The notes under the pieces: model-generated
Databases searched by the model: none
What the model was told of the DNA's origin: nothing
What the model saw: only the letters and a program-made list of their open reading frames with translations
Shown: positions 32,361 to 48,985 of the stretch, piece by piece
Position numbering within the stretch: the first letter of the stretch is position 1
How the letters are laid out: each line of letters begins with the position of its first letter
Position numbers and translations under genes: made by a program
DNA from: Bradyrhizobium sp. NFR13
GTDB lineage: Bacteria; Pseudomonadota; Alphaproteobacteria; Rhizobiales; Xanthobacteraceae
Direction of reading: 5' to 3'
Assembly (NCBI RefSeq): GCF_900114605.1
Contig: NZ_FOTP01000003.1
Coordinates: 186,001 to 250,000, forward strand
Length of the DNA: 64,000 nucleotides

Positions 32361-32866
32361 TAAAACTCCCGGGCGATCTTCGCCATCATGCCCAGCAGCG
32401 CCTTGTGCTCAGCCGGCCCCAGCACCTCGATCAACCGGGCTTCATGCCGCGTTGCCACCAGCTTCTTGGCGCGGATGAGCGTGGCGCGGCCCTTGTCCGT
32501 GAGCATCAGCACGTGGGAGCGGCGATCGCTCGGCGAGCGCATCCGCGTCAGCAAGTCGCGGCTCTCCAAGGCGTCGAGCAGCGAAACAAAATTCGGACGG
32601 AGAATGCCGAGCGTATTGGCGATTTCGGTCTGATTGCGGCCAGGGTTCTTGTCCAGCAGCAAAAGCACCGAGAACTGCGCCGGCGTCAGCTGCAACGGCG
32701 CCATGCAGCGCAGGAAGTCTTCGAATACCTTCAACTGCGCGCGTTTCAACGAATAGCCCAACAGTTCAGAGAGTTCACCGAGCTGCAGCGCACCACTCTC
32801 CTCATCGAACCCGACGGGCGTGACTTGCTTGGCTTGATCCTGAGACGACGTTTTTGAAACAGTCAT
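32360..32866 (-). CDS. MarR-family transcriptional regulator (168 aa)
   Basis: Winged helix-turn-helix regulator: dimerisation helices at both ends and a DNA-binding core at about residues 55-125 (LTPAQFSVLLLLDKNPGRNQTEIANTLG, then the wing RMRSPSDRRSHVLMLTDKG). MarR proteins near aromatic pathways usually act as repressors released by an aromatic acid or its CoA thioester. It is divergent from livHMGF; the shared AT-rich region contains the dyad at 32950-32964, which also occurs before the crotonase-ligase operon and between dctP and pobA. By analogy with BadR/CouR-type regulators it may control all three, but the binding is an inference. Confidence 0.9.
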   Translation of the reverse strand: MTVSKTSSQDQAKQVTPVGFDEESGALQLGELSELLGYSLKRAQLKVFEDFLRCMAPLQLTPAQFSVLLLLDKNPGRNQTEIANTLGILRPNFVSLLDALESRDLLTRMRSPSDRRSHVLMLTDKGRATLIRAKKLVATRHEARLIEVLGPAEHKALLGMMAKIAREF

Positions 32867-32949
32867 TGCTCGCTTTCCGCGGTATCCGGCAGCTTGAATG
32901 AAACACCCGATCGAAGTGCGACGGGGCCTTGAGATTATGTTTGATAATC

Positions 32950-32964
32950 GTTATGAGATATATC
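32950..32964. promoter_or_regulatory. Operator candidate A (GTTATG-AGA-TATATC) between marR and livH
   Basis: AT-rich dyad in a GC-rich genome, 84 bp before marR and 86 bp before livH. It matches sites at 42904-42918 and 47688-47702 (consensus GTTATR-N3-TATAAT/TATATC). A wider inverted pair TTTGATA (32940-32946) and TATCAAA (32961-32967) overlaps it. Confidence 0.5.
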
Positions 32965-33049
32965 AAATAGAGGGCGGGTTTCAACCGCCATTGTTGATCG
33001 TCCCGCGCCTATGGTATCCGGCGCAGACAGTGTGGGGGAGCGCGCGGCT

Positions 33050-34090
33050 TTGAATACGACGATTTTGCTGTTCCTTTTGCAGGACGGCATCACCAATGGC
33101 GCGATCTATGCGCTGCTAGGGCTGGCCCTGGTGCTGGTCTTTGCGGTTACACGCATCATCCTGATCCCCCAGGGCGAATTTATCACCTTTGGTGCGCTGA
33201 CTTATGCCAGCCTCTCGGCCGGCCAGATGCCGGGCACCATCAAGCTCGCGGTCGCCATGGGCGTCGTGGCCTTTGCCTTCGATCTCTTCACCTTCCGCAA
33301 GGCGCTCCATGCCAAGCGCGTATTGCGCTCGATCGCGGTGAACATCGTATTCCCGATGGCGATCTGGGGCGTGATGTGGGCGCTGGGTGGACGGCCGGGG
33401 AATATCGCCCTCAACATCGCGCTGTCGCTGCTGATCGTCGCCGCCATCGGCCTTTATCTCTATCGCATCGCGTTCCAGCCGATCGCCCACACCTCCGTGC
33501 TAGTGCTGCTGATCGCCTCCGTGGGCTGCCACCTGGCGCTACAGGGCTTCGGCCTCGTCTTCTTCGGCGCTGAGGGCCAGCGCGGCCCGGCGATCTCCTC
33601 AGACGCCATCACCATCGGCGCGCTGCGCTTCACCGGCCAGAGCATCGCCGTCTACGGCATCACCATCGCGCTGATCGTCGGGTTGTGGCTGTTCTTCGGT
33701 TACACGCTTTATGGCAAGGCGCTGCGCGCTACGGCGGTGAACCGCCTCGGTGCCCGCCTCGCCGGCATTCGGACCTCGCTGTCCGGCCAGATCGCGTTCC
33801 TGCTGGCCTCGGTCATCGGCGCCATCTCAGGCATTCTGATCGTGCCGATCACCACGCTCTATTACGACACCGGCTTCCTGATCGGCCTGAAGGGCTTCAT
33901 CGCCGCAATCATCGGCGGCCTCGTCAGCTATCCGCTGACGGCCGCCGCCGCGATCCTGGTTGGCTGCGTCGAGGCCTTCTCGTCTTTCTATGCGAGCAAC
34001 TACAAAGAGGTCATCGTCTTCACGCTGATCCTTCCGGTTCTGGTGCTGCGCTCGCTCGCCGCACCTGAAGTCGAAGAAGAGAAGGATTAA
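33050..34090 (+). CDS. livH: Branched-chain amino acid-type ABC permease LivH (346 aa)
   Basis: Inner-membrane permease subunit of a HAAT importer; opens with TTILLFLLQDGITNGAIYAL and contains IPQGEFITFGALTYA and the coupling-loop region LRATAVNRLGARLAGI. Start at TTG 33050 is favoured: GGGGGAG lies 9 nt upstream and it gives the normal LivH N-terminus; an ATG 39 nt upstream has no ribosome site. Slightly longer than typical LivH (about 290-310) because of extra helices (AFDLFTFRKAL, VNIVFPMAIWGVMWALGG). First gene of livH-livMG-livF and the likely partner of many of the nearby orphan binding proteins. Confidence 0.9.
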   Translation: MNTTILLFLLQDGITNGAIYALLGLALVLVFAVTRIILIPQGEFITFGALTYASLSAGQMPGTIKLAVAMGVVAFAFDLFTFRKALHAKRVLRSIAVNIVFPMAIWGVMWALGGRPGNIALNIALSLLIVAAIGLYLYRIAFQPIAHTSVLVLLIASVGCHLALQGFGLVFFGAEGQRGPAISSDAITIGALRFTGQSIAVYGITIALIVGLWLFFGYTLYGKALRATAVNRLGARLAGIRTSLSGQIAFLLASVIGAISGILIVPITTLYYDTGFLIGLKGFIAAIIGGLVSYPLTAAAAILVGCVEAFSSFYASNYKEVIVFTLILPVLVLRSLAAPEVEEEKD

Positions 34091-34095
34091 ACGCC

Positions 34096-35868
34096 ATGCG
34101 ACAGCGTCTCCTTCCCATTCTCGTCTTCGCGCTGGTAATGGCCGCGATCCCGTTCGTGCCGGGTGTGCCGCCATTCTGGATCGTGCTGCTCGACAATATC
34201 GGCCTCGCCGCGCTCGTCGCCATGGGCCTCGTGTTGCTCACCGGCGTCGGTGGCCTGACCTCATTCGGCCAGGCAGCGTTCTGCGGTTTCGGCGCCTATA
34301 CGACGGCCTATCTCACCACCGCCTATGGCATGTCGCCGTGGCTGACGCTGCCGATGTCACTGATCGTCTCGGGCCTCGCCGCGGTGCTGCTCGGCATCAT
34401 CACCATGCGTCTGTCGGGCCACTATCTTCCGCTCGGCACCATCGCCTGGGGCATCAGCCTGTTCTATCTGTTCAGCAAGCTGGAATTCCTCGGCCGTAAC
34501 GACGGCATCTCGGGCATCCCGCCGCTGTCGATCGGTACGTGGAAGATGCTGGATCCCGGCTCGATCTATTTCCCGATCTGGATTGCGGTCATCATCTGCG
34601 CGCTGTTGTCGATGAACCTTCTGGACTCGCGGACTGGCCGCGCCATCCGCGCGCTGCGCCGTGGCCATATCGCAGCCGAAGCCTTCGGCGTGCAGACGGC
34701 GCGCGCGAAGCTACTGGTCTTCATCTATGCAGCAGTTCTCGCCGGCCTATCCGGTTGGCTCTATGCGCATTTCCAGCGCGCTGCGAATCCGACGCCATTC
34801 GGACCGCATCTCGGCATCGAATATCTGTTCATCGCGGTGGTCGGCGGCGCCGGCTATGTCTGGGGCGGCGTGCTCGGTGCGGCCGTGGTCGTGATCCTCA
34901 AGGAAGTGCTGCAAAGCTATCTGCCGTTGATCTTCGGCGGCGGCGGCCAGCTCGAAACCATCGTGTTCGGCATCCTGCTCGTCGCGCTGCTCCAGCTCGC
35001 ACCGACTGGCATGTGGCCGTGGCTGACCGCGTGGCTGCCGTCTGGCGACAGCCGCAAGCGCCCCGCGCCAGCCGATGCGCTGCCCGCCCGTAACGACCAC
35101 CGTCCGGATACCGGCGTACTGCTGCAGGTCGACAAGGCGCGTAAGCAGTTTGGCGGCGTGGTCGCCGTCAACGACGTGTCGTTCAACGTGCAAGCGCGCG
35201 AGATCGTCGCTTTGATCGGCCCCAACGGCGCCGGCAAGAGCACGACCTTCAACCTCATCACCGGCGTGCTGGCCGCGACCGCCGGCAAGGTCGCGGTATT
35301 CGGCAAGAGTATCTCTGGCGCACGACCACAAGAGATCGTCAACCTCGGCATTGCCCGTACCTTCCAGCATGTGAAGCTGGTGCCCGACATGACTGTGCTG
35401 GAAAACGTCGCCCTCGGTGCCCATCTGCGCGGACGTTCGGGTGCCCTCGCCAGCATGCTGCGACTCGACCGCGCCGACGAAGCTAAACTGTTGGCGGAGG
35501 CCGCCAAGCAGATCGAGCGCGTCGGCCTCGGCGACCAGATGAACCAGCTTGCAGGATCCCTGTCTCTCGGCCAGCAGCGCATCGTCGAGATCGCTCGCGC
35601 ACTCTGCGTCGATCCGCTGCTGCTGCTGCTCGACGAACCCGCGGCCGGCCTGCGTCACATGGAGAAGCAGCAGCTTGCAGCGCTTTTGCGACAACTGCGC
35701 GATGGCGGCATGTCGGTGCTGCTGGTCGAACACGACATGGGCTTCGTCATGAATCTCGCCAACCGCATCGTGGTGCTCGATTTCGGCACCAAGATTGCCG
35801 AGGGCACACCGGCTGACATCAAGACCAATCCCGACGTCATCAAGGCCTATCTGGGAGCGGTCGCATGA
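34096..35868 (+). CDS. Fused LivM-LivG: ABC permease plus ATP-binding domain (590 aa)
   Basis: Residues 1-315 form the LivM permease ([40 protein letters not shown], coupling loop [16 protein letters not shown]). After a linker at about 316-345 ([20 protein letters not shown]) the LivG ATPase follows: Walker [10 protein letters not shown] at about 375-383, signature [15 protein letters not shown] near 490, Walker [12 protein letters not shown] near 510, switch His in VEHDMG. LivM and LivG are usually separate proteins; such fusions are known in this transporter class. The gene lies 5 bp after livH and overlaps livF by 4 bp. Confidence 0.93.
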
Positions 35869-36596
35869 GCACCTTGCTGCAAGTCACCGATGCGCATGTC
35901 GCCTATGGCAAGGTCGAGGCGGTCCGTGCGGTCAATCTCGAGGTTCGTGAAGGCGAGATCGTCACCATCATCGGCGCCAATGGTGCCGGCAAGACAACAT
36001 TGCTGAATGCGACGATGGGAATCCTGCCGCTGAAAGGCGGCGTGACATTCACGGGACAGGATATATCCAAACTCGATATCGAGGATCGTGTCGCAGCTGG
36101 CCTGAGCCTAGTTCCCGAACATCGCGAATTGTTCGCCACCATGAATGTGGAAGACAATCTGCTGCTCGGCGCCTTCCGCATCGACAAGGCAACGGCCGCG
36201 CGTTCGTTCGAGCGAGTCTACACGCTATTTCCGCGCCTCAAGGAACGTCGCAAGCAGCTGGCCGGCACGATGTCCGGCGGCGAACAGCAGATGCTGGCGA
36301 TGGGTCGTGCGCTGATGGGAGCGCCGAAGCTGCTGATGCTCGACGAGCCGAGCCTCGGCCTCGCCCCGATCATCGTCGCCGACATCTTCCGCATAGTCAG
36401 CGAGCTCAGGGCAGCCGGCGTCTCGGTGCTGCTAGTCGAGCAAAACGCACAGGCCGCGCTGAAGATCGCCGACCGTGCTTATGTGATGGAGCTTGGCGAG
36501 TTCATCCTCGATGGAAACGCCAGCGACATCGCCAGTAACCAACGCGTGGTCGCGAGCTACCTTGGCTTTCAGCACGAAGGCGCGAGCGCAATCTGA
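35865..36596 (+). CDS. livF: Branched-chain amino acid-type ABC transporter ATP-binding protein LivF (243 aa)
   Basis: Walker A GANGAGKTT at about residues 36-44, signature MSGGEQQMLAMGRAL near 135, Walker B KLLMLDEPSLGL near 155, switch region LVEQNAQAAL. The helical domain contains LSLVPEHRELFATMNVEDNLLLG typical of LivF. Starts in an ATGA overlap with livMG and ends the operon, followed by a bidirectional terminator. Confidence 0.95.
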   Translation: MSTLLQVTDAHVAYGKVEAVRAVNLEVREGEIVTIIGANGAGKTTLLNATMGILPLKGGVTFTGQDISKLDIEDRVAAGLSLVPEHRELFATMNVEDNLLLGAFRIDKATAARSFERVYTLFPRLKERRKQLAGTMSGGEQQMLAMGRALMGAPKLLMLDEPSLGLAPIIVADIFRIVSELRAAGVSVLLVEQNAQAALKIADRAYVMELGEFILDGNASDIASNQRVVASYLGFQHEGASAI

Positions 36597-36609
36597 TCTC
36601 GATCATATG

Positions 36610-36642
36610 AAAAAACCGGCTGTCTCGCGGCAGCCGGTTTTT
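36610..36642. terminator. Bidirectional terminator between livF and the convergent binding-protein gene
   Basis: Perfect stem ACCGGCTG / CAGCCGGT flanked by AAAAA on the left and TTTTT on the right, so it can act on both strands. Confidence 0.88.
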
Positions 36643-36661
36643 GTTTGAGCTGTGCTCCAGT

Positions 36662-37813
36662 TTATTTCGCCGGAACGTATTTGCCGTCCTTCACCGTCAA
36701 CAGGATCCGCGAACGATCGTCGACGCCGTTACGGTCCTTTTCGCTGTAGTTGTAGACGCCCTGCGTCGCGGCGATTTCCTTCTCGCTTATCAGCGCCTGG
36801 CGGATGGCTTCGCGGAATTCCGGGGTGCTGGGCTTGGCGGTCTTCAGCGCCACGGGCACGACGCGCTTCAGCACTTCGAACACGTCATAGGCGTGGCCGG
36901 CGAACTGACTGCGGCTGTTAGCGCCGTATTTGGCTTCATAGGCCGCGTTGAGTTCGAGGCCGGGCTTCTTGGTCAGCGCCGTGTCCGGCTGACCTTCCGG
37001 ATACATCACGGGACCAGCGGCCATCAGCACACCTTCGGCCGACTTGCCGGCGATGCGGATGAAGTCGCTCGAGGCGGCGCCATGGGTCTGGTAGATCAGC
37101 CCCTTGTAGCCGCGGTCACGCAGCTCGGACTGCGGCATACCGGCACCGGTGCCAGCAGCGCCGATCAGGATCGCATCGGGATTGGCAGCAATAAGCTTCA
37201 GCGCCTGACCGGTGATCGACGTATCCGGACGTGCGAAACGCTCGTCGTCGACGATGGACATGCCCATCGCTGACGTCTGGGCCTTGAGGTCATTGAACCA
37301 CAGGTCGCCATAGCTGTCTGAGTAACCGACATAGGCGATGGTCTTCACCCCATGGGCCCTCATGTGGTCGTACATGACCTTGCCGACGATCTCGACTGGC
37401 TGCGGCATGTCCACCGACCACTTCACACGCGCTGGCGTAAACGGCATCGGCGACAGGCTGAAATGCGGCACACCGGCTTCGTTGGCGACCGCCGACATGG
37501 CGACTGAGGACGGTACGATCGACGAGCCGACCATGATGTCGGCCTTGGATTCCGACACGAAACGGCGCGCATTGGTGGTCGCGATGGACGGATCACCGCC
37601 GTCATCGAGCACAATCAGCTTCAGCGGCACGCCGCCGATGTCCTTCGGCACGAATTCCAGCGCGTTGCGCTCAGGCACGCCCAGCGCCGCCGCAGGGCCC
37701 GTGGTGGAGATGCTGATGCCGACGGTGATCTCGGCGGCGGTCTGGGTTTCGGCGGGGGTGGCAGTCGCCAGCGAGACGGCAACAGCCGCGATCGCCAGGT
37801 GAAGCTTGGACAT
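36662..37813 (-). CDS. HAAT-family ABC substrate-binding protein (383 aa), second subfamily
   Basis: Signal peptide MSKLHLAIAAVAVSLATATP with cleavage near AETQTA; mature start EITVGISISTTGPAAALGVP. Blocks GDPSIATTNARRFVSESKAD, KTIAYVGYSDSYGDLWFNDL and YKGLIYQTHGAASSDFIRIA belong to a subfamily distinct from the five-copy array and shared with the neighbour at 38005-39153. Start at 37813 has AGAAAG about 9 nt upstream. Convergent with livF; probably uses the LivHMGF membrane complex. Ligand unknown, an aromatic or phenylpropanoid acid being plausible from context. Confidence 0.92.
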   Translation of the reverse strand: MSKLHLAIAAVAVSLATATPAETQTAAEITVGISISTTGPAAALGVPERNALEFVPKDIGGVPLKLIVLDDGGDPSIATTNARRFVSESKADIMVGSSIVPSSVAMSAVANEAGVPHFSLSPMPFTPARVKWSVDMPQPVEIVGKVMYDHMRAHGVKTIAYVGYSDSYGDLWFNDLKAQTSAMGMSIVDDERFARPDTSITGQALKLIAANPDAILIGAAGTGAGMPQSELRDRGYKGLIYQTHGAASSDFIRIAGKSAEGVLMAAGPVMYPEGQPDTALTKKPGLELNAAYEAKYGANSRSQFAGHAYDVFEVLKRVVPVALKTAKPSTPEFREAIRQALISEKEIAATQGVYNYSEKDRNGVDDRSRILLTVKDGKYVPAK

Positions 37814-37911
37814 GTCGTATCTTTCTCGTGTGGACGCAGAGAGCGCTGAAAGCGGCAGCGATACCGGCAGACGTGGCGCTGGTTGTGATCGCGCGAAGCC
37901 TCGCGCGCAGC

Positions 37912-37940
37912 AAAAAGCCGACCCTCTGGCGAGGGCCGGC
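37912..37940 (-). terminator. Terminator after the binding-protein gene at 38005-39153
   Basis: On the minus strand GCCGgCCCTC / GAGGGtCGGC with a 4 nt loop, followed by TTTTT. It separates the two tandem binding-protein genes, so the second likely has its own promoter. Confidence 0.75.
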
Positions 37941-38004
37941 CTTGTTATCGAAAAATACCGGCAAAGCAAAGGCGCTTGGCGCCCTGCCCTCCGTCAGATC
38001 TGCA

Positions 38005-39153
38005 TTACTGGGCGAGAACGTATTTACCGTCCTTCACCGTCAGCAGGATGCGCGAGCGCTCATCAAGGCCGTAACGATCCTTTTCGGTGAAGTTGTAGAC
38101 GCCCTGGGTGGCGGCAATCTCACGCTCGGTGAGCAGCGCTTGCCGGATCGCCTCGCGGAACTCGGGGGTGCCGGGCTTGGCGGTCTTCAGCGCCGTCGGG
38201 ATCACCCGCTTCAGCACCTCGAAGGCGTCATAGGAGTGGCCGGCGAACTGGCTGCGGCTGTTCGGGCCATATTTGGCCTCATAGGCGGTGTTGAGCGTCA
38301 TGCCGGGCTTCTTGGTCAGCGCGGTGTCGGCCTGGCCTTCCGGATACATCACCGGGCCGGAGGCCATCAGCACGCCTTCGGCAGCTTTGCCGGCAATGCG
38401 GATGAAGTCCATCGAGGCGGCGCCGTGGGTCTGATAGATCAGGCCCTTGTAGCCCTTGTCGCGCAGTTCGGTCTGCGGTAGCGCGGCCGCGGTGCCCGAG
38501 GCGCCGATCAGGATCGCGTCAGGATTGGCGGCGATCAGTTTCAGCACCTGGCCAGTCACCGACGTATCCGGACGGGCAAAACGCTCTTCCGCCGCGATAT
38601 TGATGCCCATCGGCACCGCCTGGGTCTTGAGATCGTTGAACCACAGATCGCCGTAGCTATCGGAATAGCCGATATAGCCGATGGTCTTGATGCCCTTGGA
38701 CTTCATGTGGTCGTACATCACCTTGCCGACGATTGGCACGGGCTGGGGCATGGCCACCGACCACTTGGCGCGTTCCGGCGTGATCGGCAGCGGCGACAGG
38801 GCGAAATGCGGGATGCCAGCTTCGTTGGCCACGTTGGACACCGCAATGCTGGTTGGCGTCACCGCCGAACCCATGATGATGTCGGCCTTGGATTCGGTCA
38901 TGAAACGGCGGGCATTGGTGGTCGCGGTGGTCGGATCGCCGCCATCGTCGAGCACGATGATCTTGAGCGGCACGCCGCCGATTTCCTTCGGCACGAATTC
39001 CAGCGCGTTGCGTTCGGGAATGCCCAGCGCGGCCGCGGGACCCGTGGTCGACGTGGTGATGCCGATGGTGATGTCGGACGTCTGCGCAAAAGCCGGTGCG
39101 GCGAGTGCCAGCGAAGCGGCAACAGCCGCGATCGCCAAGTGATGCTTGGTCAT
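38005..39153 (-). CDS. HAAT-family ABC substrate-binding protein (382 aa), paralogue of 36662-37813
   Basis: Signal peptide MTKHHLAIAAVAASLALAAP ending AFAQ; mature start TSDITIGITTSTTGPAAALG. Very similar to the next gene (NSRSQFAGH, EFREAIRQAL, RSRILLTVKDGKYV blocks), so the pair is a tandem duplication. Start at 39153 has GGGAGAG 5-11 nt upstream. Followed by its own terminator. It lies 130 bp downstream of the SDR gene of the crotonase-ligase operon. Confidence 0.92.
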   Translation of the reverse strand: MTKHHLAIAAVAASLALAAPAFAQTSDITIGITTSTTGPAAALGIPERNALEFVPKEIGGVPLKIIVLDDGGDPTTATTNARRFMTESKADIIMGSAVTPTSIAVSNVANEAGIPHFALSPLPITPERAKWSVAMPQPVPIVGKVMYDHMKSKGIKTIGYIGYSDSYGDLWFNDLKTQAVPMGINIAAEERFARPDTSVTGQVLKLIAANPDAILIGASGTAAALPQTELRDKGYKGLIYQTHGAASMDFIRIAGKAAEGVLMASGPVMYPEGQADTALTKKPGMTLNTAYEAKYGPNSRSQFAGHSYDAFEVLKRVIPTALKTAKPGTPEFREAIRQALLTEREIAATQGVYNFTEKDRYGLDERSRILLTVKDGKYVLAQ

Positions 39154-39231
39154 GGGTCTCTCCCTCAGGGTCAATTTTTTATGTGGTCAGCTAAATCAAA
39201 GTTCGGCTGGCTTATCAGCCCCTTCTTTAGG

Positions 39232-39268
39232 TCAGTGCGCCCGTACCGGTAAAGGGCTAGCGCACTGA
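39232..39268 (-). terminator. Possible weak terminator after the SDR gene
   Basis: Inverted repeat TCAGTGCGC / GCGCACTGA (9 bp, 19 nt loop) just after the SDR stop; no clear T-run. Confidence 0.4.
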
Positions 39269-39283
39269 TGCTTTGCCGCAGGC

Positions 39284-40045
39284 TTAACGTGGCGCCATGC
39301 GCAGCGAGGCGTCGAGCCGGACCACCTCGCCGTTCAGATATGGATTATCGATCATGTGCAGTGCGAGAGACGCGAATTCGTCGGCATGGCCGAGTCGGCG
39401 CGGAAATGGGATCGCCGCGGCGAGGCTGTCCTGAGCCTCCTGCGGCAGACCTGCCAGCAGCGGCGTCATGAACAGACCCGGTGCGATGGTCAGCACGCGA
39501 ATGCCAAACTGGGCCATTTCGCGCGCGATCGGCAGCGTCATGCCGACGATGCCCCCCTTCGACGCCGAATAGGCGGACTGGCCGATCTGGCCGTCATAGG
39601 CGGCCACCGAGGCCGTCGAGATCACCACGCCGCGCTCGCCGGTTTCCAGCGGCTCCAGCTTGGACATAGGATCGGTCGCCAGACGGATCATGTTGAAGGA
39701 CCCGATCAGATTGACGCGGATGACCTTGTCGAAATCGCCGAGCGCCATCGGACCATCGCGGCCAATCACGCGCTTGGCGACGCCAATGCCGGCGCAGTTC
39801 ACCAGCACGCGCGCCGGGCCGTGCGCCTTGGCGGCGACGGCGACCGCGGCTTCAGCGGACGCAGCGTCCGACACATCGCAGGAGATCGCGATGCCGCCGA
39901 TTTCCCTAGCGACGGTTTCGGCGAGTGTCGTGTTGAGATCAAGCAGCGCGACTTTCGCGCCTTGCGCAGCGAGCCTGCGCGCTGTCGCAGCGCCGAGGCC
40001 GGATGCGCCGCCGGTGACAATGGCGGATTGATTTGTGAGTTGCAT
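39284..40045 (-). CDS. Short-chain dehydrogenase/reductase, 3-hydroxyacyl-CoA dehydrogenase-like (253 aa)
   Basis: NAD-binding Rossmann fold with TGGASGLG at residues 11-18 and an Asp at the end of strand 2 (VALLDLN) favouring NAD. Catalytic residues: Ser in STASVAAYDG, Tyr and Lys in YSASKGG. It resembles the type-2 (HSD10-like) 3-hydroxyacyl-CoA dehydrogenases that oxidise the hydroxyacyl-CoA produced by a crotonase. Start at 40045 with GGGAGAG 5-11 nt upstream. Last gene of the operon crotonase - ligase - SDR, consistent with beta-oxidation-like shortening of a phenylpropenoyl-CoA side chain. Confidence 0.88.
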   Translation of the reverse strand: MQLTNQSAIVTGGASGLGAATARRLAAQGAKVALLDLNTTLAETVAREIGGIAISCDVSDAASAEAAVAVAAKAHGPARVLVNCAGIGVAKRVIGRDGPMALGDFDKVIRVNLIGSFNMIRLATDPMSKLEPLETGERGVVISTASVAAYDGQIGQSAYSASKGGIVGMTLPIAREMAQFGIRVLTIAPGLFMTPLLAGLPQEAQDSLAAAIPFPRRLGHADEFASLALHMIDNPYLNGEVVRLDASLRMAPR

Positions 40046-40085
40046 GACGCTCTCCCGTGTTTAGCTCTTCTGGTAATCCCCGTTC

Positions 40086-40128
40086 GTCGTTCTGGGCTCG
40101 TGTGCAGCTGACGCTGCCCCGGAATGAC
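40086..40128. repeat. Degenerate copy of the GTCATTCCGG palindromic element
   Basis: Left arm GTCGTTCTGGG is diverged, right arm CCCCGGAATGAC is intact. It sits between the SDR and the ligase genes of one operon. Confidence 0.5.
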
Positions 40129-40135
40129 CGTGTGG

Positions 40136-42019
40136 TCAGATCGCAATGACTTTCGCTGCTTCCGCATTCCCATAGATGTCGTCGATCAGTTTAGCGCGAT
40201 GCTCGAGCACCGCGCGCTGATTCACCGAGCCCTTGTCGGTGACTTCGCCGCGATCGATCGACAGCGGTGTATCGAGCAGCACAGCCTTGGCGATGCGCGT
40301 CGATGAACCGGTGGCGCCGGCCATGAAGCGCGCGAGGCGCTCGCGAAACGCGTTGCGGATGATCGGATCATTGGCTGCCGCAGCAAGGTCGCCCGCAGGA
40401 AGATCGGGATTGATCACACGGCAGCCGTCGAGATCGAGAATGACGAGAGCTGCGAGTTCATCGCGGTTGATGCCAGCGATGACGACATCGCGCACCAGCG
40501 GCGCGCAAGTACCGACGAAGCGCGCGCGCAGCGGGCCAACACTGACCCAGGTGCCGCTGCCGAGCTTGAAATCCTCGGAGATACGGCCGTCGAAATCGAA
40601 GCCTGCGGAAAGATCATTGGGATCGACCGCTTTGAGCGCATCGCCGAAGATGTAATAGCCCTCCTCGTCAAACGCCTTCGCGGTCAGTTCCGGCTCGCGC
40701 CAATAGCCCGGCGTGATGTTCGGCCCTTTTGCGCGTACTTCCATCTTGCCGTTATTCGGCACCAGCTTGGCATCGTTGCCCGGCACCGGGAGACCGACAT
40801 GGCCGGAGCGACTGGTGACAGGATTGACACACATGAAGAAGGGCGAGGTCTCGGTCGCGCCGAGACCTGTCAGCATCGGCACGCGCACGCCGGTGGTCTG
40901 GACCGACAGTTCATCGAGACTGTCCCAGACATAGGCCGACAGCGCAGCACCCGAGAAAAACATCGCATGCAGCCGTGTGAAAAATTTCTCGCGCAACGCC
41001 GCATCCTCGCGCAGATAGGGCAGCAGCGATTCATAGCCTTTAGGAACGTTAAAATAGACCGTGGGTGAAATCTCGCGGAGATTGCGGATGGTCTGCTCGA
41101 TGCCAGCCGGTGTCGGCTTGCCGTCGTCGAGATACATCGAGCCGCCATTGAACAGTGTCAGCCCGATATTGTGATTGCCGCCGAAAGTATGATTCCACGG
41201 CAGCCAGTCGATGATGACAGGCGGCTCGTCCTTCAGGAAAGCCAGCGTGTCGCGCAGCATGATTTGGTTGGCGCACATCATGCGCTGGGTATTGATCACA
41301 GCCTTCGGATTGCCTGTCGAGCCCGAAGTCAGCAGAAATTTGGCGATTGTGTCAGGACCGATGGCAGCATTCGCGGCGTCGAGATTGGCTGCCTCCTGCG
41401 TCGTGAGAAACTCAGAGAGCTTTGTCACACCGCGATCCGGCAGCATGCCGCGGGACACGACGACTTCGACATCGGCCGGGACATTGACGCGGACCGCATC
41501 CGCGAACACGTCGCCGTCGTCGACGAACACCAACCCTGGCGTCAGCAGCTTCATGAGATAGCCGAGCTTGCCGTAATCCTTCGACACCAGCGAATAAGCC
41601 GGCGACACCGGCGCATAGGGGATACCGGCATAGAGCGCGCCAAAAGCGATCAGTGCGTGATCGACCGAATTTCCGGAGAGGATGACGATGGGCCTGTCGG
41701 CCGACAGCCCGCGGGTCAGCAGAGCCGAGGCGATGTGGCGCGCTGCGTCCAGCATCTGGGCGTAAGTGACTTCACGCCAGCCGCCGCCTTCCGCGCGCTC
41801 GGCCATGAAGACGCGACCCGGCGTCTCCCTGGCCCAGTGATGCAAATAATCGGTGACGCGATCCGGATAGTCGCCGATGGCTTTGGCCGGCCGCAGGTAG
41901 ATAGTGCCGTTATCGTGGCGCTCGATAGTGACAGCGGGGTCGCCGTAGGATATCGGCCGCAACGGATGCGCCGCCTCTGCCCGCTTGGTCTGATCGATCT
42001 TGTCGGCACTTGCAGACAT
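40136..42019 (-). CDS. Feruloyl-CoA synthase-like acyl-CoA ligase (627 aa)
   Basis: ANL-superfamily enzyme that activates a carboxylic acid to its CoA thioester through an acyl-adenylate. The phosphate-binding motif LLTSGSTGNPKAV is near residue 225, the A5 region GLGATETSPF near 385, and the C-terminal domain carries GRISEDFKLGSGTWV. The long form with the N-terminal PISYGDPAVTIERHDNGTIY segment and the C-terminal SIDRGEVTDKGSVNQRAVL belongs to the group annotated as feruloyl-CoA synthases. Start at 42019. Lies 65 bp after the crotonase gene. A paralogue occurs at 61887-63761. Substrate probably a hydroxycinnamate or related aryl acid, not proven. Confidence 0.88.
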   Translation of the reverse strand: MSASADKIDQTKRAEAAHPLRPISYGDPAVTIERHDNGTIYLRPAKAIGDYPDRVTDYLHHWARETPGRVFMAERAEGGGWREVTYAQMLDAARHIASALLTRGLSADRPIVILSGNSVDHALIAFGALYAGIPYAPVSPAYSLVSKDYGKLGYLMKLLTPGLVFVDDGDVFADAVRVNVPADVEVVVSRGMLPDRGVTKLSEFLTTQEAANLDAANAAIGPDTIAKFLLTSGSTGNPKAVINTQRMMCANQIMLRDTLAFLKDEPPVIIDWLPWNHTFGGNHNIGLTLFNGGSMYLDDGKPTPAGIEQTIRNLREISPTVYFNVPKGYESLLPYLREDAALREKFFTRLHAMFFSGAALSAYVWDSLDELSVQTTGVRVPMLTGLGATETSPFFMCVNPVTSRSGHVGLPVPGNDAKLVPNNGKMEVRAKGPNITPGYWREPELTAKAFDEEGYYIFGDALKAVDPNDLSAGFDFDGRISEDFKLGSGTWVSVGPLRARFVGTCAPLVRDVVIAGINRDELAALVILDLDGCRVINPDLPAGDLAAAANDPIIRNAFRERLARFMAGATGSSTRIAKAVLLDTPLSIDRGEVTDKGSVNQRAVLEHRAKLIDDIYGNAEAAKVIAI

Positions 42020-42084
42020 TGTTTCCGCCCTGTGTATTCGTCTCGATTATTGCTTTTATTTTTGTTCGTTGTCGTCTTGCCGGA

Positions 42085-42876
42085 TTAGCCAGGTTTCACC
42101 TTGCCGGCCTTGCGCTCCAGAAAATCCCTGATGCGATTTTTCGCCTCCTGATCGCTCTGCGCCACCGAGGCCATCAACGCTTCGAGCATCAGGCCGGTCT
42201 GCGGACTGGCTTCGGCGATCAGCGGCAAGGCCTGCAACACGGCAAAATTTGTCAACGGCGCGTTCTGCGCAACACGTTCGGCAAGCTCTATGGCCTTGGG
42301 CAACGCGCCGTCGGCTTCCGTCAGATATTGCGCGAAGCCGAGCGACATACCCTCTTCCGCCTTATAGACGCGGCCCGTGAGCATCATGTCGGCCATCCGG
42401 TGCACACCGATCAGACGCGGCAGGCGCATCGAACCGCCGCCACCAACGAAAATGCCGCGGCTGCCTTCCGGCAGCGCGTAGTAGACCGAGGGATCGGCAA
42501 CGCGGATATGCGCGGAGCAAGCCAGTTCAAGCCCGCCGCCGATCACTGCCCCCTGTAGTGCGGCAATCACCGGGACGCGGCAATGCTGGATGATATCGAA
42601 CACCCGGTGCCACATCCGTGAATGCATCAGGCCGGCCGTCGCGTCGCGCTCGGTGAGTTCGGACAGATCGAGACCCGCGGAAAAATGCCCACCGATGCCG
42701 TGCACCACCACCGCACCGATGTCGTCCGGCAGTGATGCGAAGCAACGCTCGATCTCCAGGATCAGCCCATCATTCAGCGCGTTGCGCTTGGCGGGACGGT
42801 TCAGGCCCACGATCAACACGCGGCCCTGGGTTTCGATCTGGAGCATGGCGGCGGCAGCGGCGACGGCTTGGTTCAT
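42085..42876 (-). CDS. Crotonase-family enoyl-CoA hydratase/lyase (263 aa)
   Basis: Crotonase fold with the oxyanion-hole segments GHFSAGLDL near residue 63 and IGGGLELACSA near 112, keeping the first catalytic Glu, and LPEGSRGIFVGGGG near 138 with the second Glu position filled. Start at 42876. First gene of the operon with the CoA ligase and SDR, so it should hydrate or cleave the ligase product. Operator candidate B lies 28-42 bp upstream of the start and overlaps a TATAAT hexamer, so expression is probably repressed there. Confidence 0.88.
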   Translation of the reverse strand: MNQAVAAAAAMLQIETQGRVLIVGLNRPAKRNALNDGLILEIERCFASLPDDIGAVVVHGIGGHFSAGLDLSELTERDATAGLMHSRMWHRVFDIIQHCRVPVIAALQGAVIGGGLELACSAHIRVADPSVYYALPEGSRGIFVGGGGSMRLPRLIGVHRMADMMLTGRVYKAEEGMSLGFAQYLTEADGALPKAIELAERVAQNAPLTNFAVLQALPLIAEASPQTGLMLEALMASVAQSDQEAKNRIRDFLERKAGKVKPG

Positions 42877-42903
42877 GAGCGCTATTAGGTCCTAGCTAGA
42901 ATA

Positions 42904-42918
42904 ATTATATCTTATAAC
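42904..42918 (-). promoter_or_regulatory. Operator candidate B upstream of the crotonase-ligase-SDR operon
   Basis: On the minus strand GTTATA-AGA-TATAAT. The right arm is a perfect -10 hexamer, so a bound repressor would block the promoter. The arms are identical to those of site C at 47688-47702. Confidence 0.55.
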
Positions 42919-42963
42919 GAATGTCGCATGAGTCAATCTTGCGGTGCAATAGAGGGGCACAAC

Positions 42964-43007
42964 AGCGATCCGGTCTGGCCTGACCCGCAGGGATAGACCG
43001 GATCGCT
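42964..43007 (-). terminator. Hairpin after the cyclase gene
   Basis: Perfect 13 bp inverted repeat AGCGATCCGGTCT / AGACCGGATCGCT, 14 bp after the cyclase stop. It lacks a strong T-run but probably ends the TRAP-cyclase operon. Confidence 0.6.
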
Positions 43008-43020
43008 TCCCTTACGAGGG

Positions 43021-43956
43021 CTAGCGGATCGCCACCGGGTTGATCATGCTCTGCACACCGCCCTTGAAGCGGGGCTGGCCAAGCACGAACAGGAACTCGT
43101 AGCCTCTGTCGTTGGCCAGTTCGGACGTGTCCATGTTTTCGAGGATATAGGTCCCGTTCATCGCCAGCAGTATCTGGTGGATTTCGAACACATTGCCGGT
43201 TTCGAACGGCAGCACCTCGACGCCCCAGGTATCGGCACCGACCGCGACGACACCCTTGCTGGTCAGATACTTGGCGCCCTCGGCGCCAAGACCGGGCTCG
43301 CCGGCATTGTAGCGTTTATCGTCCTTGCCGAGCAGGCTGAGCCATCCGGTGTGAAACAGCACGACGTCGCCTTGCCTGATCTCGACACCCTGGGCCTTGG
43401 CGACCTCCTCGATTTCCTTGACGTTGAAAGCCGTGCCTTCCTTGACCACGTCTGTCTTGTAATAGGCCGCCATGTCCAGCAGCACGCCACGGGTGACCAG
43501 CGGCGGCACCTTATCGATGCCGAGCTTCTTCAGGCCAGTGGGATCACCGAAGTCTGCAATTTTGTTGCCGTTATAGTAGACGTGATTGACGCCGAGATGG
43601 CCGAGTCCGTCCATCTGGCTGCCGACGCCGACCCAACCGTTGAGCATGTCGTCGTTGTAGGTTGCATGATTGGGACCGAGTCCGGGATTGCCGGCCTGAC
43701 CGGGCTGCACCACGGTGATCTTGAAACCGCGGGGCGGATAGGCCGGCGTGTCCGCGCCCACCGGAATGCCGAGTGCGTAGGTCTTCCCGGTTTTCACCAG
43801 TTGCACGGCTGACTTCACGAGGTCGGGCTTCATGTAGTTCGCGGCGCCGATCTCATCGTTCGGCCCCCACTTCAATTTGGTCCAGTCCTGAGCAGATGCA
43901 GGCAAAATGATCGCAAACACAGAGATCGAACACCCAAGCACGCAAGCCTTCAGCAT
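43021..43956 (-). CDS. Exported cyclase-family (PF04199, kynurenine formamidase-like) protein, 311 aa
   Basis: Signal peptide (MLKACVLGCSISVFAIILPA, cleavage near ASAQ) directs it to the periplasm. The family fold is recognised from WVGVGSQMDGLGHLG, VTRGVLLDMAAY, GDVVLFHTGWLSLLG and VAVGADTWGVE. The metal motif usually reads HxGTHxDxPxH; here it is GSQMDGLGH, keeping only Asp and the last His, as in a separate subfamily. Start at 43956 with GGGAGGA 7-13 nt upstream. It ends an operon with a TRAP importer and a DUF3237 protein, so it may hydrolyse a ring or amide substrate outside the cytoplasm before uptake. Confidence 0.85.
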   Translation of the reverse strand: MLKACVLGCSISVFAIILPASAQDWTKLKWGPNDEIGAANYMKPDLVKSAVQLVKTGKTYALGIPVGADTPAYPPRGFKITVVQPGQAGNPGLGPNHATYNDDMLNGWVGVGSQMDGLGHLGVNHVYYNGNKIADFGDPTGLKKLGIDKVPPLVTRGVLLDMAAYYKTDVVKEGTAFNVKEIEEVAKAQGVEIRQGDVVLFHTGWLSLLGKDDKRYNAGEPGLGAEGAKYLTSKGVVAVGADTWGVEVLPFETGNVFEIHQILLAMNGTYILENMDTSELANDRGYEFLFVLGQPRFKGGVQSMINPVAIR

Positions 43957-44050
43957 GTTGTATCCTCCCGATATGTGCCGGCTTTTGCCGGTCAACCGTA
44001 GTTAACAACACGAAGTGGGAGAAAGTAAGCACGGCCCGACCGCGCAGACC

Positions 44051-44515
44051 TCACAGCACCTGATGCACCGCGAGCTCGACACGGTCGGGATGCCGTGCTC
44101 CGACGCCGATGAACAGGTTCTGCATCAGCCAGCGATACCTGGGATGCCCTGTCTCAAATTTCGGCACTGAGCGGAAATAGATCAGCGCGGGATCGACCGC
44201 CTCGCCCCGCGCGATGCGATCAAGCGCGTCCTTCGGGCCAAAGCGGACACCTATATTCTCGATGTAGACCACAGCGCCATCATCGAGCTCAAACGCGTAT
44301 TTCGCCTCAAGTTCGGTAAAGCCGTCCGGACGAATGACCTGGAAGTCCGCACCGCCCGAATGGATCGTGCCCTTGATGCCTTCGCCCAGCACAGTGCCGC
44401 CAAGGACCGGGATGACGCGGCGGATGCCATAGCCGAGATCGCCGGCCACGATCGGCGTGCCGACCTTGATCGACAGGCTGAACACATACTTTGTCGCAAG
44501 CGGCGGTGTGGTCAT
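44051..44515 (-). CDS. DUF3237 family protein (154 aa)
   Basis: Small beta-barrel-like protein with the DUF3237 blocks VGTPIVAGDLGYGIRRVIPV and VLGEGIKGTIHSGGADFQ, ending with ETGHPRYRWLMQNLFIGVG. No signal peptide, so it is cytoplasmic. Start at 44515; a TTG four codons upstream is in frame but would overlap the TRAP permease further. DUF3237 genes are often found in aromatic degradation operons with unknown role. It directly follows dctM and precedes the cyclase. Confidence 0.85.
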   Translation of the reverse strand: MTTPPLATKYVFSLSIKVGTPIVAGDLGYGIRRVIPVLGGTVLGEGIKGTIHSGGADFQVIRPDGFTELEAKYAFELDDGAVVYIENIGVRFGPKDALDRIARGEAVDPALIYFRSVPKFETGHPRYRWLMQNLFIGVGARHPDRVELAVHQVL

Positions 44516-44519
44516 GGCA

Positions 44520-45830
44520 TCACCCAATCATCCGCATCGGCAGCCATGTGGCGATCAGCGGGAACAGGATCAGCAAAATCAGGCGGATCAGGTCAGTGGC
44601 CACGAACGGCAGCACGCCCTTGAAGATCGTGGCCATGCTGACATCCTTGATCACGCTCTTGATGACGAACACGTTCATGCCCACCGGCGGATGGATCAGG
44701 CCGAGTTCGACGGTCATGACGATGACAATGCCGAACCAGATCGGATCAAAGCCCAGCGCCATCACCACCGGAAACACGATCGGTACGGTGAGGATCACCA
44801 TCGCCATGGCGTCCATCAGACAGCCGAGCACCAGATACATCAGAAGGATCAGCGCCAGCACGCCATAGGGGCCGATGCCCAAACCAGTAAGGAATTCGGT
44901 GACGTGTTGCGGCGTCTGCGTGATGGTGAGGAAGTAACCGAAGCACAGCGCACCGATCAGCACGGTGAACACGGCGGCAGCGGTGCGCGTCGCCTGCAAC
45001 AGCGATTGCAGGATGCCGTCTTTCGTCAGCTTGCCACGTAACACGCCGATGATGAAGGCGCCGACTGCCCCCACCGCGCCGGCTTCGGTCGGGATGAAGA
45101 AGCCGCCATAAAGGCCGCCAATCACGAAGACGAAAAGCAACAATGGCGACCAGACGTCGCGGATCGCCGCGGCGCGCTCGCGCCATGACGCCTTCGGGCC
45201 TGCCGGCAGGAAACCGGGTTTTGCAACGCCGATAATCGCGATGGTGATCATGTGCATGACGATGGCAAGCAGACCGGGCACAATGCCGGCAATAAACAGC
45301 TTGCCGATGTCCTGCTGGGTAATGATGCCGTAAACTGCCAGCACTGTGGACGGCGGCAGCATCGCACCGAGCGTGCCGCCGACGGCGATGACGCCGGTCG
45401 CAAAGCTCTGCGGATAGTTGAAGCGACGCATTTCCGGATAGGCCACGGCGGAGAATGTCGCAGCCGTCGCGACCGACGAGCCGGAGATCGCAGCGAAACC
45501 GCCGCAGGCGGCGATGGTCGCGATGCCCAGACCACCTTTCCAGTGGCCGACAAAGGTGTTGGCCGCGCGAAACAGTTCACGGCTAATACCCGATACCGAG
45601 ACGAAAGCGCCCATCAGGAGGAACATCGGGATCACGCCGAAGGAATAATCAGTCACCGTCCGCATCGTGGTCTGGCCGACCAGCTTCAACGCCGGCGCAA
45701 AGCCGGTGAGATAACCGAAGCCCGTGATGCCCACGAGGCCCATCGCCATGCCGACAGGCACGCGTAGCAACATTAGCACGAACAGGCTGACAAAGCCGAT
45801 GACGGCAACCGCTTCGTTACTAAGATCCAT
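44520..45830 (-). CDS. dctM: TRAP transporter large permease DctM (436 aa)
   Basis: Twelve-helix ion-coupled transport subunit of a TRAP importer. Typical segments: LRVPVGMAMGLVGITGFGY near the N-terminus, GISRELFRAANTFVGHWKGG, AAISGSSVATAATFSAVAYP, and MLPPSTVLAVYGIITQQDIG. Start at 45830 (MDLSNEA) gives the normal length; it lies 5 bp after dctQ. Imports a carboxylate delivered by the binding protein; an aromatic acid is likely from the neighbouring pobA and ligase genes. Confidence 0.94.
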   Translation of the reverse strand: MDLSNEAVAVIGFVSLFVLMLLRVPVGMAMGLVGITGFGYLTGFAPALKLVGQTTMRTVTDYSFGVIPMFLLMGAFVSVSGISRELFRAANTFVGHWKGGLGIATIAACGGFAAISGSSVATAATFSAVAYPEMRRFNYPQSFATGVIAVGGTLGAMLPPSTVLAVYGIITQQDIGKLFIAGIVPGLLAIVMHMITIAIIGVAKPGFLPAGPKASWRERAAAIRDVWSPLLLFVFVIGGLYGGFFIPTEAGAVGAVGAFIIGVLRGKLTKDGILQSLLQATRTAAAVFTVLIGALCFGYFLTITQTPQHVTEFLTGLGIGPYGVLALILLMYLVLGCLMDAMAMVILTVPIVFPVVMALGFDPIWFGIVIVMTVELGLIHPPVGMNVFVIKSVIKDVSMATIFKGVLPFVATDLIRLILLILFPLIATWLPMRMIG

Positions 45831-45835
45831 GCGAC

Positions 45836-46402
45836 TTACTCTGCCGTCTTGATTTCGGGTTCGCGCATCTCTTCCGGATGGAAGATCAGCCGATAGGTGC
45901 GGATCGCGATCAACAGCACTGCCGAGACATCGCCGATCCATGACAACAGGAAGAACGGCCAGACCGGCAGTTGCAGATCCATGGTGACGATGTGGCTGGA
46001 ATAGGTATCGGCCACCTTATCGAACAGCGTGTAGGTCTGCACCGAGACGACAAACAACAGCACCAAGGTCGCGAACACGTCGATCCAGCGCTGATATTTC
46101 GGCTTGGCATTGGCCCAGACCAGATCGACGGTGATGTGCGAGCCGCGATAGGAGGTCGCAGCGATGCCCCAGAAGATCAGCACGCCGAGCATGAACTGAC
46201 CGATATTGTAGTAATCGGGAATCGTGACCGCGAAGAATTTTCGCATGAACACCGCGACGAAGGTGTTCAGCGCGACGATGCCGACGAAGAACGCGGCGAT
46301 CCATTCGATGGAATCGATAAAGCGATCCATCACGTTCTTGCGGGGCGGATCCGGCGGAATGCCGAGGGCGCTGGATTGGGAGATTTCGGACGTGGCGGTC
46401 AT
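45836..46402 (-). CDS. dctQ: TRAP transporter small permease DctQ (188 aa)
   Basis: Four membrane helices with the family marks VMDRFIDSIEWIAAFFVGIV, RKFFAVTIPDYYNIGQFMLG and WGIAATSYRGSHITVDLVW. Stabilises the large permease. Separated from dctP by 170 bp filled with a palindromic repeat, and from dctM by 5 bp. Confidence 0.92.
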   Translation of the reverse strand: MTATSEISQSSALGIPPDPPRKNVMDRFIDSIEWIAAFFVGIVALNTFVAVFMRKFFAVTIPDYYNIGQFMLGVLIFWGIAATSYRGSHITVDLVWANAKPKYQRWIDVFATLVLLFVVSVQTYTLFDKVADTYSSHIVTMDLQLPVWPFFLLSWIGDVSAVLLIAIRTYRLIFHPEEMREPEIKTAE

Positions 46403-46420
46403 GATGGTTTCGATTTCAGT

Positions 46421-46564
46421 TCGTCATTCCGGACCAGAAACTCGTCGTTCCGGGGCGTGCGGGCGAAACCCGCACGAACCCGGAATCTCGACATGGCTGA
46501 ACACTTCGGGATTCCGGGGCGCTTTATCGATGCTAACGCACCGACAAAGCGCCCCGGAATGACA
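46421..46564. repeat. GTCATTCCGG palindromic element inside the TRAP operon
   Basis: Outer arms GTCATTCCGG (46423) and GCCCCGGAATGAC (to 46563), inner copies of CCCGGAATCTCG and CGGGATTCCGGGGCGC. Same family as 32242-32360 but imperfect. It separates dctP from dctQ and may lower expression of the permeases relative to the binding protein. Confidence 0.75.
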
Positions 46565-46572
46565 GTGGTGGA

Positions 46573-47595
46573 TTACAGCCCCGCGTCGTGCTTCTTCAAC
46601 ATTGCTTTGAGGTCCGCATCGATGGCATCGGCATCGCCGCCGGTCTTCTTCACCGCCGCAGCCCAGGCAGCGTTGAGCGGTTGAACACCCTTCTTCCACT
46701 CGGCAAGCTGCTCGGGCGTCAGCTTGTAGACCTCATGATCCGGCAGCGCCTTCATCTTGGTGCGGCCATTGGCCTCGAAATCGACCCAGGGATCGGTGAC
46801 CTTCGAGGCCCATTCCGCCGTGCAGTGATCGTCGATGATCTTTTTCTGCGCGGGCGACATCGAATTATATTTGGCGAGGTTGATATTGTAGGTGAACACC
46901 GTCGAATAGAGTGGCACATCGATGTGATACTTCACCACCTTGTCGATGCCGAACAGGAAGATCGAGCCCCAGGGGAATGCAATCTCATCCGCCACGCCGC
47001 GCTCGATGGCGTCGCGCGATTCCGGCGCCGAGGCCTGCACATTGGTACCACCGAACAGTTTGACCATTTCGCCGATGGTGCTCTGCGCCGGGCGCACCTT
47101 CACGCCGTTGAGGTCACCGGGCACCACGATCTTCTTCTTGCCATGCAGCGAGCCGGGGTCGTGAATGAAGGCGAAGCACAGCTTCGTGTCCTTCATCTCG
47201 GTCTTCGCGTATTTCTGATACCATTCGTTGAGCGCCAGGGTGCCCTTCTTGCCGTCCGAGAACACGAACGGTAGCTGGCCCGCGGCCACGATGGGGAAAC
47301 GGCCGGGCTGATAGCCGGGATTCACGTAAGTGATGTCGGCGATACCGTCGCGCGCCATGTCGTAATGGTCGAACGCCTTGCCAAGCTGCTCGGATGGGAA
47401 CACCGACATCTTGATGCTACCGCCCGAGACCTTCTCGATATCGGCGGCCCAAGCCTGCGTGGCAGGCACCAGCGGATGCGCCGGGGGCACCCACAGCGAT
47501 ACCTTCATATTGACGGTTTTGTCTTGCGCCTGAGCGGGCGTGAGTACTGGCATGATACAGCCAGCCGCCAGCAATGCGAGAATTGCCTTCCTCAT
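46573..47595 (-). CDS. dctP: TRAP transporter substrate-binding protein DctP (340 aa)
   Basis: Signal peptide MRKAILALLAAGCIMPVLTP ending AQAQ, then the DctP fold: VSLWVPPAHPLVPATQAWAA, IKMSVFPSEQLGKAFDHYDM and IADITYVNPGYQPGRFPIVA. The ligand-binding Arg expected in the VKVRPAQSTIGEMVKLFGG segment is present. Start at 47595 with GGGAGAG 3-9 nt upstream. First gene of the TRAP-DUF3237-cyclase operon, divergent from pobA with operator candidate C between them. Confidence 0.93.
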   Translation of the reverse strand: MRKAILALLAAGCIMPVLTPAQAQDKTVNMKVSLWVPPAHPLVPATQAWAADIEKVSGGSIKMSVFPSEQLGKAFDHYDMARDGIADITYVNPGYQPGRFPIVAAGQLPFVFSDGKKGTLALNEWYQKYAKTEMKDTKLCFAFIHDPGSLHGKKKIVVPGDLNGVKVRPAQSTIGEMVKLFGGTNVQASAPESRDAIERGVADEIAFPWGSIFLFGIDKVVKYHIDVPLYSTVFTYNINLAKYNSMSPAQKKIIDDHCTAEWASKVTDPWVDFEANGRTKMKALPDHEVYKLTPEQLAEWKKGVQPLNAAWAAAVKKTGGDADAIDADLKAMLKKHDAGL

Positions 47596-47687
47596 CGTCT
47601 CTCCCTTTACGCCCGTTTGGACGTGTTCTCTCGAACTTGTTCTATCGAACTTGTTCACCGGACCTTGAACGGCCCTTTGCGAATATT

Positions 47688-47702
47688 GTTATATGTTATA
47701 AT
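47688..47702. promoter_or_regulatory. Operator candidate C between dctP and pobA
   Basis: GTTATA-TGT-TATAAT; arms identical to site B. TATAAT can serve as a -10 hexamer towards pobA. It lies 93 bp from dctP and 110 bp from pobA and could control both. Confidence 0.55.

Positions 47703-47761: not shown

Positions 47762-48985
<1,224 letters not shown>

Follow-up and report, generated by a model that had tools for sequence, protein, structure and literature searches.

An AT-rich palindrome at the couR, couA and tarP/pobA promoters marks a probable Tardiphaga copy of the CouR regulon

Why does one AT-rich palindrome recur in three promoter regions within about 15 kb of Bradyrhizobium sp. NFR13 DNA, and which protein reads it? 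The stretch analyzed, hereafter the window, comprises 64,000 nucleotides (nt) of contig NZ_FOTP01000003.1 (C8:186001-250000 in our numbering), part of a genome of 6,224,354 bases in 17 contigs, whose genus was taken as Tardiphaga. A first-pass annotation, made from the letters alone, had noted three 15-mers at 32950 (+ strand), 42904-42918 (- strand) and 47688 (+ strand), and had assigned them to the MarR-family protein encoded at 32360-32866, which was proposed to tie Liv and tripartite ATP-independent periplasmic (TRAP) uptake to coenzyme A (CoA) activation, side-chain removal and 4-hydroxybenzoate hydroxylation. The present analysis identifies the region as a Tardiphaga copy of the CouR regulon of Rhodopseudomonas palustris, a known regulon type that the first-pass annotation had rediscovered in another genus, and sequence comparison makes it highly probable that the sites are operators of the CouR encoded at 32360-32866, an explanation covering the whole regulon.

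All three 15-mers occur at these positions exactly as written. The two said to have identical arms, at 42904 and 47688, are both exact copies of GTTATANNNTATAAT and the only ones in the window, the site at 32950 differing by three mismatches; with up to three mismatches allowed, GTTATANNNTATAAT matches the window 15 times, far above the mean of 4.56 (standard deviation 2.33) in 100 dinucleotide shuffles of the window, none of which reached 15. A matrix of 19 columns, built from 72 boxes of 28 loci outside the genus with one site per promoter, ranked four positions at the top of the window: the box between tarP and pobA (GTTATATGTTATAAT, 47688-47702, + strand, 27.6 bits, the highest score in the window), the box of the couA operon (GTTATAAGATATAAT, 42904-42918, - strand, 27.2 bits, 27 nt before the couA ATG) and two boxes in the couR/livH promoter, box 1 (ATTATGTTTGATAAT, 32934-32948, + strand, 20.9 bits, 67 nt before the couR ATG) and box 2 (GTTATGAGATATATC, 32950-32964, + strand, 17.0 bits). 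The fifth position scored only 6.2 bits, leaving a gap of 10.8 bits, and a first-order model of the window predicts 0.001, 0.19 and 1.4 positions per genome at or above 27.2, 20.9 and 17 bits, respectively. The boxes here read RTTATAnnnTATAAY. Box 1 had been overlooked when the absence of any further copy was stated; it outscores the site originally noticed at 32950, which is the weaker half of a tandem pair. The proposed set of three operators is supported for couA, tarP/pobA and couR/livH, with the amendment that the couR/livH operator is double and that more boxes lie outside the stretch. The description of the right arm as a -10 hexamer is correct in so far as its letters agree with TATAAT in two of the sites, while a promoter-like match over the box was obtained only at 42904 (sigma-70-like TTGACT-16-TAAGAT, with the box overlapping the -10-like TAAGAT).

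Searches against solved structures identify the MarR protein as an orthologue of R. palustris CouR: phmmer matched it to PDB 6c28 (CouR) at 235.9 bits (E value 1.9e-69), against 46 bits for the second-ranked chain, and comparison with the printed portion of the R. palustris protein gave 78% identity across 146 residues. Among 149 genomes of the family, 35 encode CouR at 67% identity or more; the next full-length best match is 51% identical, and one partial match of 66 residues reaches 65%. The original R. palustris work is reportedly that of Hirakawa 2012, Phattarasukol 2012 and Cogan 2018. In the consulted parts of the literature, R. palustris CouR, a repressor of genes for taking up and degrading plant phenolic acids, has p-coumaroyl-CoA as its ligand and targets that include the orthologous ABC (ATP-binding cassette), TRAP and enzyme genes (PMC3610893), binds a palindromic operator that differs between R. 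palustris and Rhodococcus (PMC9594313), and is presented with the same common control and ligand response in excerpts of two reviews (PMC10458429, PMC5487221). In view of this orthology, of the two ligands suggested by the first-pass annotation hydroxycinnamoyl-CoA becomes the more likely and 4-hydroxybenzoate the less likely one.

The gene content follows the p-coumarate regulon of R. palustris (CouR RPA1794, couAB, CouPSTU, and TarPQM RPA1782-1784): the orthologous regulator, ligase, hydratase, ABC and TRAP genes are clustered here too, and a common palindrome precedes the couR/ABC, couAB and TRAP genes. Four loci of genus g28 (L103, L105, L106 and L108), presumed to be Rhodopseudomonas, encode CouR proteins 88-92% identical to the PDB sequence and carry boxes of the same motif. 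The position of pobA behind the common box is no difference in sequence, since these presumed Rhodopseudomonas loci have it; what does set the locus apart from the R. palustris regulon is an additional binding protein together with a cyclase gene in this genus, and a box at a luxR-luxI pair in this clade. A Rhodococcus-type CouR was also considered. According to the portions consulted, CouR of Rhodococcus jostii RHA1 is a MarR-type repressor of p-hydroxycinnamate genes that is released by p-coumaroyl-CoA and recognizes cATTGA-5 bp-TCAATg (PMC4737184), and a coumaroyl-CoA complex is named for 5cyv (PMC5487221). This type was ruled out, as the boxes read RTTATAnnnTATAAY instead and 5cyv matches the window protein with only 45.9 bits.

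The first-pass annotation had named a motif not enriched at the promoters of relatives as an outcome that would speak against it, and this was examined in the cou loci of 34 further genomes (two of them, L123 and L124, short), 28 of which lie outside the genus. In every one of the 34 loci couR adjoins the ABC permease gene, and couR, perm1, couP, couB, couA and tarP all lie within 20 kb in 25 of 34. Upstream regions of 300 nt were searched for RTTATANNNTATAAY with at most one mismatch (at most two in brackets), with 20 shuffles per region. The motif is enriched: a box precedes couR in 22 (34) of 34, couA in 28 (28) of 28, tarP in 23 (24) of 25 and pobA in 24 (25) of 26 cases, the last two counts not being independent, as tarP and pobA usually lie on either side of a common intergenic region. 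Shuffled upstream regions contained a box in at most 0.1% (1.2%) of cases. Other genes of the cluster were boxed far less often, namely couP in 2 (2) of 31, couB in 0 (1) of 28, lysR in 0 (3) of 17, livF in 0 (0) of 33, DUF3237 in 1 (1) of 25 and the second binding protein (SBP2) in 2 (2) of 31 cases, where the couP and SBP2 figures largely repeat each other as the SBP2 query falls on couP outside the genus; neither the short-chain dehydrogenase (SDR) gene (0 (0) of 15) nor the cyclase gene (0 (0) of 4) had any, and the MOFRL gene was unscored (n = 0). These comparisons establish directly that the boxes exist, that they are conserved and that the MarR protein is a CouR orthologue; together, conservation and orthology support the proposal of a MarR regulon that would join Liv and TRAP uptake to CoA activation, side-chain removal and hydroxylation.

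The doubling of the couR/livH operator is itself a conserved feature. In all 34 loci the best and second-best sites of this promoter are spaced by exactly 16 bp, the second-best, with scores of 10.8-18.7, being on one side in 31 and on the other in 3, and the pair at 32934 and 32950 in the window has the same spacing. A fixed distance of 16 bp corresponds to roughly 1.5 turns of the helix and suggests that two CouR dimers would sit on nearly opposite faces of the DNA.

The role of pobA (47813-48985, + strand; 4-hydroxybenzoate 3-monooxygenase, TIGR02360 with 696.2 bits against a cut-off of 538.7) requires separate consideration, as tarP and pobA are both possible users of the single box at 47688, whose distance is 92 nt to the likely tarP ATG and 110 nt to pobA. 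If it served tarP alone, pobA would be under its own control and the couR, couA and tarP boxes would still be CouR operators. Such an arrangement would agree with four loci in which the tarP box is kept with no pobA match beside tarP (L104, L107, L109 and L115); moreover, the name pobA is absent from two R. palustris papers searched for it, PMC3610893 among them, and no report of CouR controlling pobA was found in the literature consulted. It is opposed by all five loci that lack tarP (L117-L120 and L122), in each of which a box scoring 21.5-30.0 is retained 53-161 nt ahead of pobA, with the caveat that couA lies opposite in L117 and L118 and may share the box, as may couP, which lies opposite in L119 and L120. 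Judged from this comparison, pobA is likely a further CouR target, and exclusive service to tarP appears rather improbable.

Several observations weigh against the sites being CouR operators. The consensus scan gave no sigma-70-like promoter over the boxes in the two regions other than 42904. No box with at most one mismatch was found in 2 of 25 tarP and 2 of 26 pobA promoters, couR promoters reach only two mismatches in 12 of 34 cases, and 3 of 17 lysR promoters carry a two-mismatch site. The looser core RTTATNNNNNATAAY occurs at 101 places in 18 genomes of the genus against 69 for the backward control, which is no strong enrichment, so that the loose core alone is weak evidence. Exact RTTATANNNTATAAY sites number 16 in the 114 genomes without CouR, not above the backward control of 24, and the exact motif by itself is therefore no proof of an operator. 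Finally, other genomes have the motif beside MarR regulators that share only 38-47% identity with CouR (L200, L203 and L204), so that boxes of this kind could be recognized by a different MarR protein.

This last point favours a reading in which the motif is served by another MarR-type regulator, for example a paralogue resembling CouR, with CouR itself recognizing just a subset of the boxes; a wider group of regulators may indeed share the operator motif. For the present locus we regard this as very unlikely, considering that the boxes flank couR itself, which is the syntenic orthologue of the regulator reported to control these genes. Still less credible is a chance resemblance among ordinary AT-rich promoter elements. 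TATAAT does lie inside two of the boxes and the sites do sit in promoters, but the boxes are conserved before couA, tarP and pobA and not before the control genes, the 16-bp tandem is present in 34 of 34 loci, and the first-order model leaves only 0.001 positions of at least 27.2 bits per genome; together with the shuffles and the gap in matrix scores, this rules out chance AT-rich matches.

With CouR taken as the reader of the boxes, and with its control and its response to p-coumaroyl-CoA carried over by analogy from the R. palustris publications, the regulon would operate as follows. Without hydroxycinnamate, CouR dimers would occupy palindromes of the form RTTAT(A)nnn(T)ATAAY and presumably occlude RNA polymerase: two dimers on the tandem pair between couR and the ABC operon, providing autoregulation and control of uptake, one before the couAB-SDR-SBP genes, and one between the TRAP operon and pobA. 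Upon entry of p-coumarate or a related acid, CouB would form the CoA thioester and CouR would be released, resulting in joint induction of two transporters, CoA activation, side-chain removal and 4-hydroxybenzoate hydroxylation.

The genes concerned are arranged as follows. couR (32360-32866, - strand) is followed by an ABC transporter of the CouSTU kind (33011-36596, + strand; Pfam BPD_transp_2 and ABC_tran, named by position), composed of a permease (33011-34090), a permease-ATPase fusion (34096-35868) and an ATPase (35865-36596). Two periplasmic binding proteins are encoded next on the - strand: the second binding protein (36662-37969; Peripla_BP_6), for which the 28 loci from outside the genus gave no separate match, and couP (38005-39174), an aromatic-acid binding protein named by position and family, whose PDB matches 3tx6, 4jb0, 3ukj and 3uk0 (E values up to 5.9e-196) were deposited under generic names. 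One ABC transporter is thus accompanied by two neighboring binding proteins at 36662-39174, where loci outside the genus show one. The couAB operon, also on the - strand, contains the SDR gene (39284-40045; adh_short), couB (40136-42019; AMP-binding domain, at the same place as couB elsewhere, a ligase with an inferred hydroxycinnamate substrate; PRK12582 with 742.9 bits, slightly below the cut-off of 777) and couA (42085-42876; ECH_1, PRK08150 with 406 bits at a cut-off of 232), a putative enoyl-CoA hydratase/aldolase. Putative cyclase and DUF3237 genes (43021-44527, - strand; Pfam Cyclase and DUF3237) separate couA from tarM, tarQ and tarP (44520-47658, - strand; DctM, DctQ and DctP), the counterpart of TarPQM, in which tarP probably starts at the ATG at 47595. 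A LysR regulator gene is also among the neighbors according to Pfam and NCBIfam, and PADLOC gave no match for two neighboring proteins. Between the convergent MOFRL and couR genes lies a long hairpin (32245-32357; -90.7 kcal/mol, z -12), whose 16-base end CGTCATTCCGGGGCGC has 130 copies in the genome with at most one mismatch (59 on the + and 71 on the - strand; backward control 0). This hairpin is a palindromic repeat dispersed through the genome, which may act as a terminator, and further copies lie near 46443-46564 and 57263.

Beyond the window, the genome was scanned by patterns, and matrix scores were calculated for the window and for selected genome places. The core RTTATNNNNNATAAY occurs at six places in the genome, three of them in these 15 kb (32934, 42904 and 47688), and its backward pattern once. 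A place at C6:844115 (score 16.4) was rejected as an operator, since it covers an ATG, the probable start codon of a phospholipase-D-like reading frame (name read by eye), and C7:103230 scores 10.4 bits. Across the family, the 35 genomes with CouR contain 62 exact RTTATANNNTATAAY sites (backward control 2), divided equally between cou loci (31: 29 in L091-L124 and 2 in the window) and other places (31). Among the latter, 17, in as many genomes, precede an amidohydrolase gene (PF04909), 6 precede pcaH, 2 luxR, 2 a TRAP binding protein (one with a pobA-like gene opposite), 1 a tannase/feruloyl esterase, 1 another marR and 1 a crotonase 78% identical to couA, and 1 has nothing recognizable next to it. 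Pfam assignments cover L180 (an amidohydrolase), L196 (a PcaH), L186, L189, L192 and L200; L188 and the remainder of the amidohydrolase and PcaH groups were assigned by a common N-terminal sequence, by eye or by script. Some boxed Amidohydro_2 genes of other genera have a MaoC-like gene opposite (boxed loci L125-L130 and L179-L201). For the genome studied here, amidohydrolase and pcaH were ruled out as CouR targets, as neither, its own pcaH included, has an upstream box; the 16 amidohydrolase orthologues in 18 genus genomes have none within 300 nt (best score -4.8). In a genus-mate, an exact CouR box (L179:2472, G140:C1:476971) has no reading frame of at least 90 codons starting within 380 nt. 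Of the 16 exact sites in CouR-free genomes, 13 were inspected (the three in G101 and G134 being left out): 6 lie before couA-like crotonases (57% identical in L205, the one tested, the others judged by eye), 3 before an ABC binding protein, 1 before DctP, 1 before a Phenol_MetA_deg protein, and 2 have no obvious target. These sites mostly precede plausible genes, though their count is not above the control.

The sole surprising item lies outside the window, on a contig other than that of the cou genes (C7 instead of C8). An exact copy of the motif at C7:58796-58810 (L030:6797-6811) is located 53 nt ahead of the start codon (ATG) of a luxR-type gene (L030:6009-6743, - strand; PF03472 and PF00196), which is followed by a luxI-type gene (L030:5312-6007, - strand; PF00765) whose start is probably the second methionine, some 82 nt downstream of luxR. 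With 30.0 bits, this box scores highest among the seven genome places scored (the six core palindromes and 32950) and above every cou box of this genome; as good a position is expected fewer than 0.00005 times per genome by the window model and 0.0018 times genome-wide with the composition of the luxR upstream region. The closest solved relative of LuxI is the 4-coumaroyl-homoserine lactone synthase RpaI (6wn0, E 8.5e-30) of the RpaI-RpaR p-coumaroyl-homoserine lactone quorum-sensing system of R. palustris. The next entry (E 7.5e-26), deposited as an autoinducer synthase, is presumably BjaI. LuxI matches outside the genus reach 51% identity at best, with 36-38% (G028, G108 and G125) and 43-44% (G089 and G141) in presumed Rhodopseudomonas, and this LuxI is therefore not an evident RpaI orthologue.

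The luxR box differs from species to species. The 18 genus genomes contain 14 luxR orthologues, and the promoter could be read for 13 of them (L161 was left out); five of these, with proteins 96-100% identical, carry a box with at most one mismatch, scoring 30.0, 26.4, 21.9, 18.3 and 15.6 (one of them displaced by about 14 nt), and eight carry none, so that an early origin of the box within the operon was rejected. In the five genomes with a luxR box, those of couA and tarP are all exact. Matches to LuxI were found in 59 genomes, from which 30 loci were retrieved; the 24 outside the genus (L067-L090) have no box of one mismatch or fewer in the roughly 1.5 kb around luxI. An exact site arising by chance has to be reckoned with, since 26 exact backward-control sites occur in 149 genomes (0.06 per genome where CouR is present, 0.2 where it is absent), more palindromes than the model predicts, and this lowers the odds that CouR governs luxR. 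No CouR control of a luxR-luxI pair was found in the titles and abstract openings of the open-licence papers retrieved. On this comparative evidence we propose only tentatively, as a possibility less probable than its opposite, that CouR might repress luxR-luxI in the Tardiphaga robiniae clade, where p-coumaroyl-CoA would switch on both phenolic breakdown and the signal.

Taken as a whole, a motif spotted by eye in raw sequence marks a real, conserved regulon, and its analysis yields a 72-site CouR matrix and a tandem operator with a fixed 16-bp spacing. The candidate targets extend beyond uptake and activation to ring hydroxylation through pobA and, in other genera, to ring cleavage through pcaH and to an amidohydrolase. 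p-Coumaroyl-CoA is the product of CouB and is usable by RpaI-type synthases; in R. palustris GJ-22, CouB supplies it to RpaI, and in the part of that report consulted, precursor supply is the only link so far described between p-coumaroyl-CoA and signalling (PMC10305029). If the luxR-luxI box works, a plant-derived metabolite would directly license quorum sensing.

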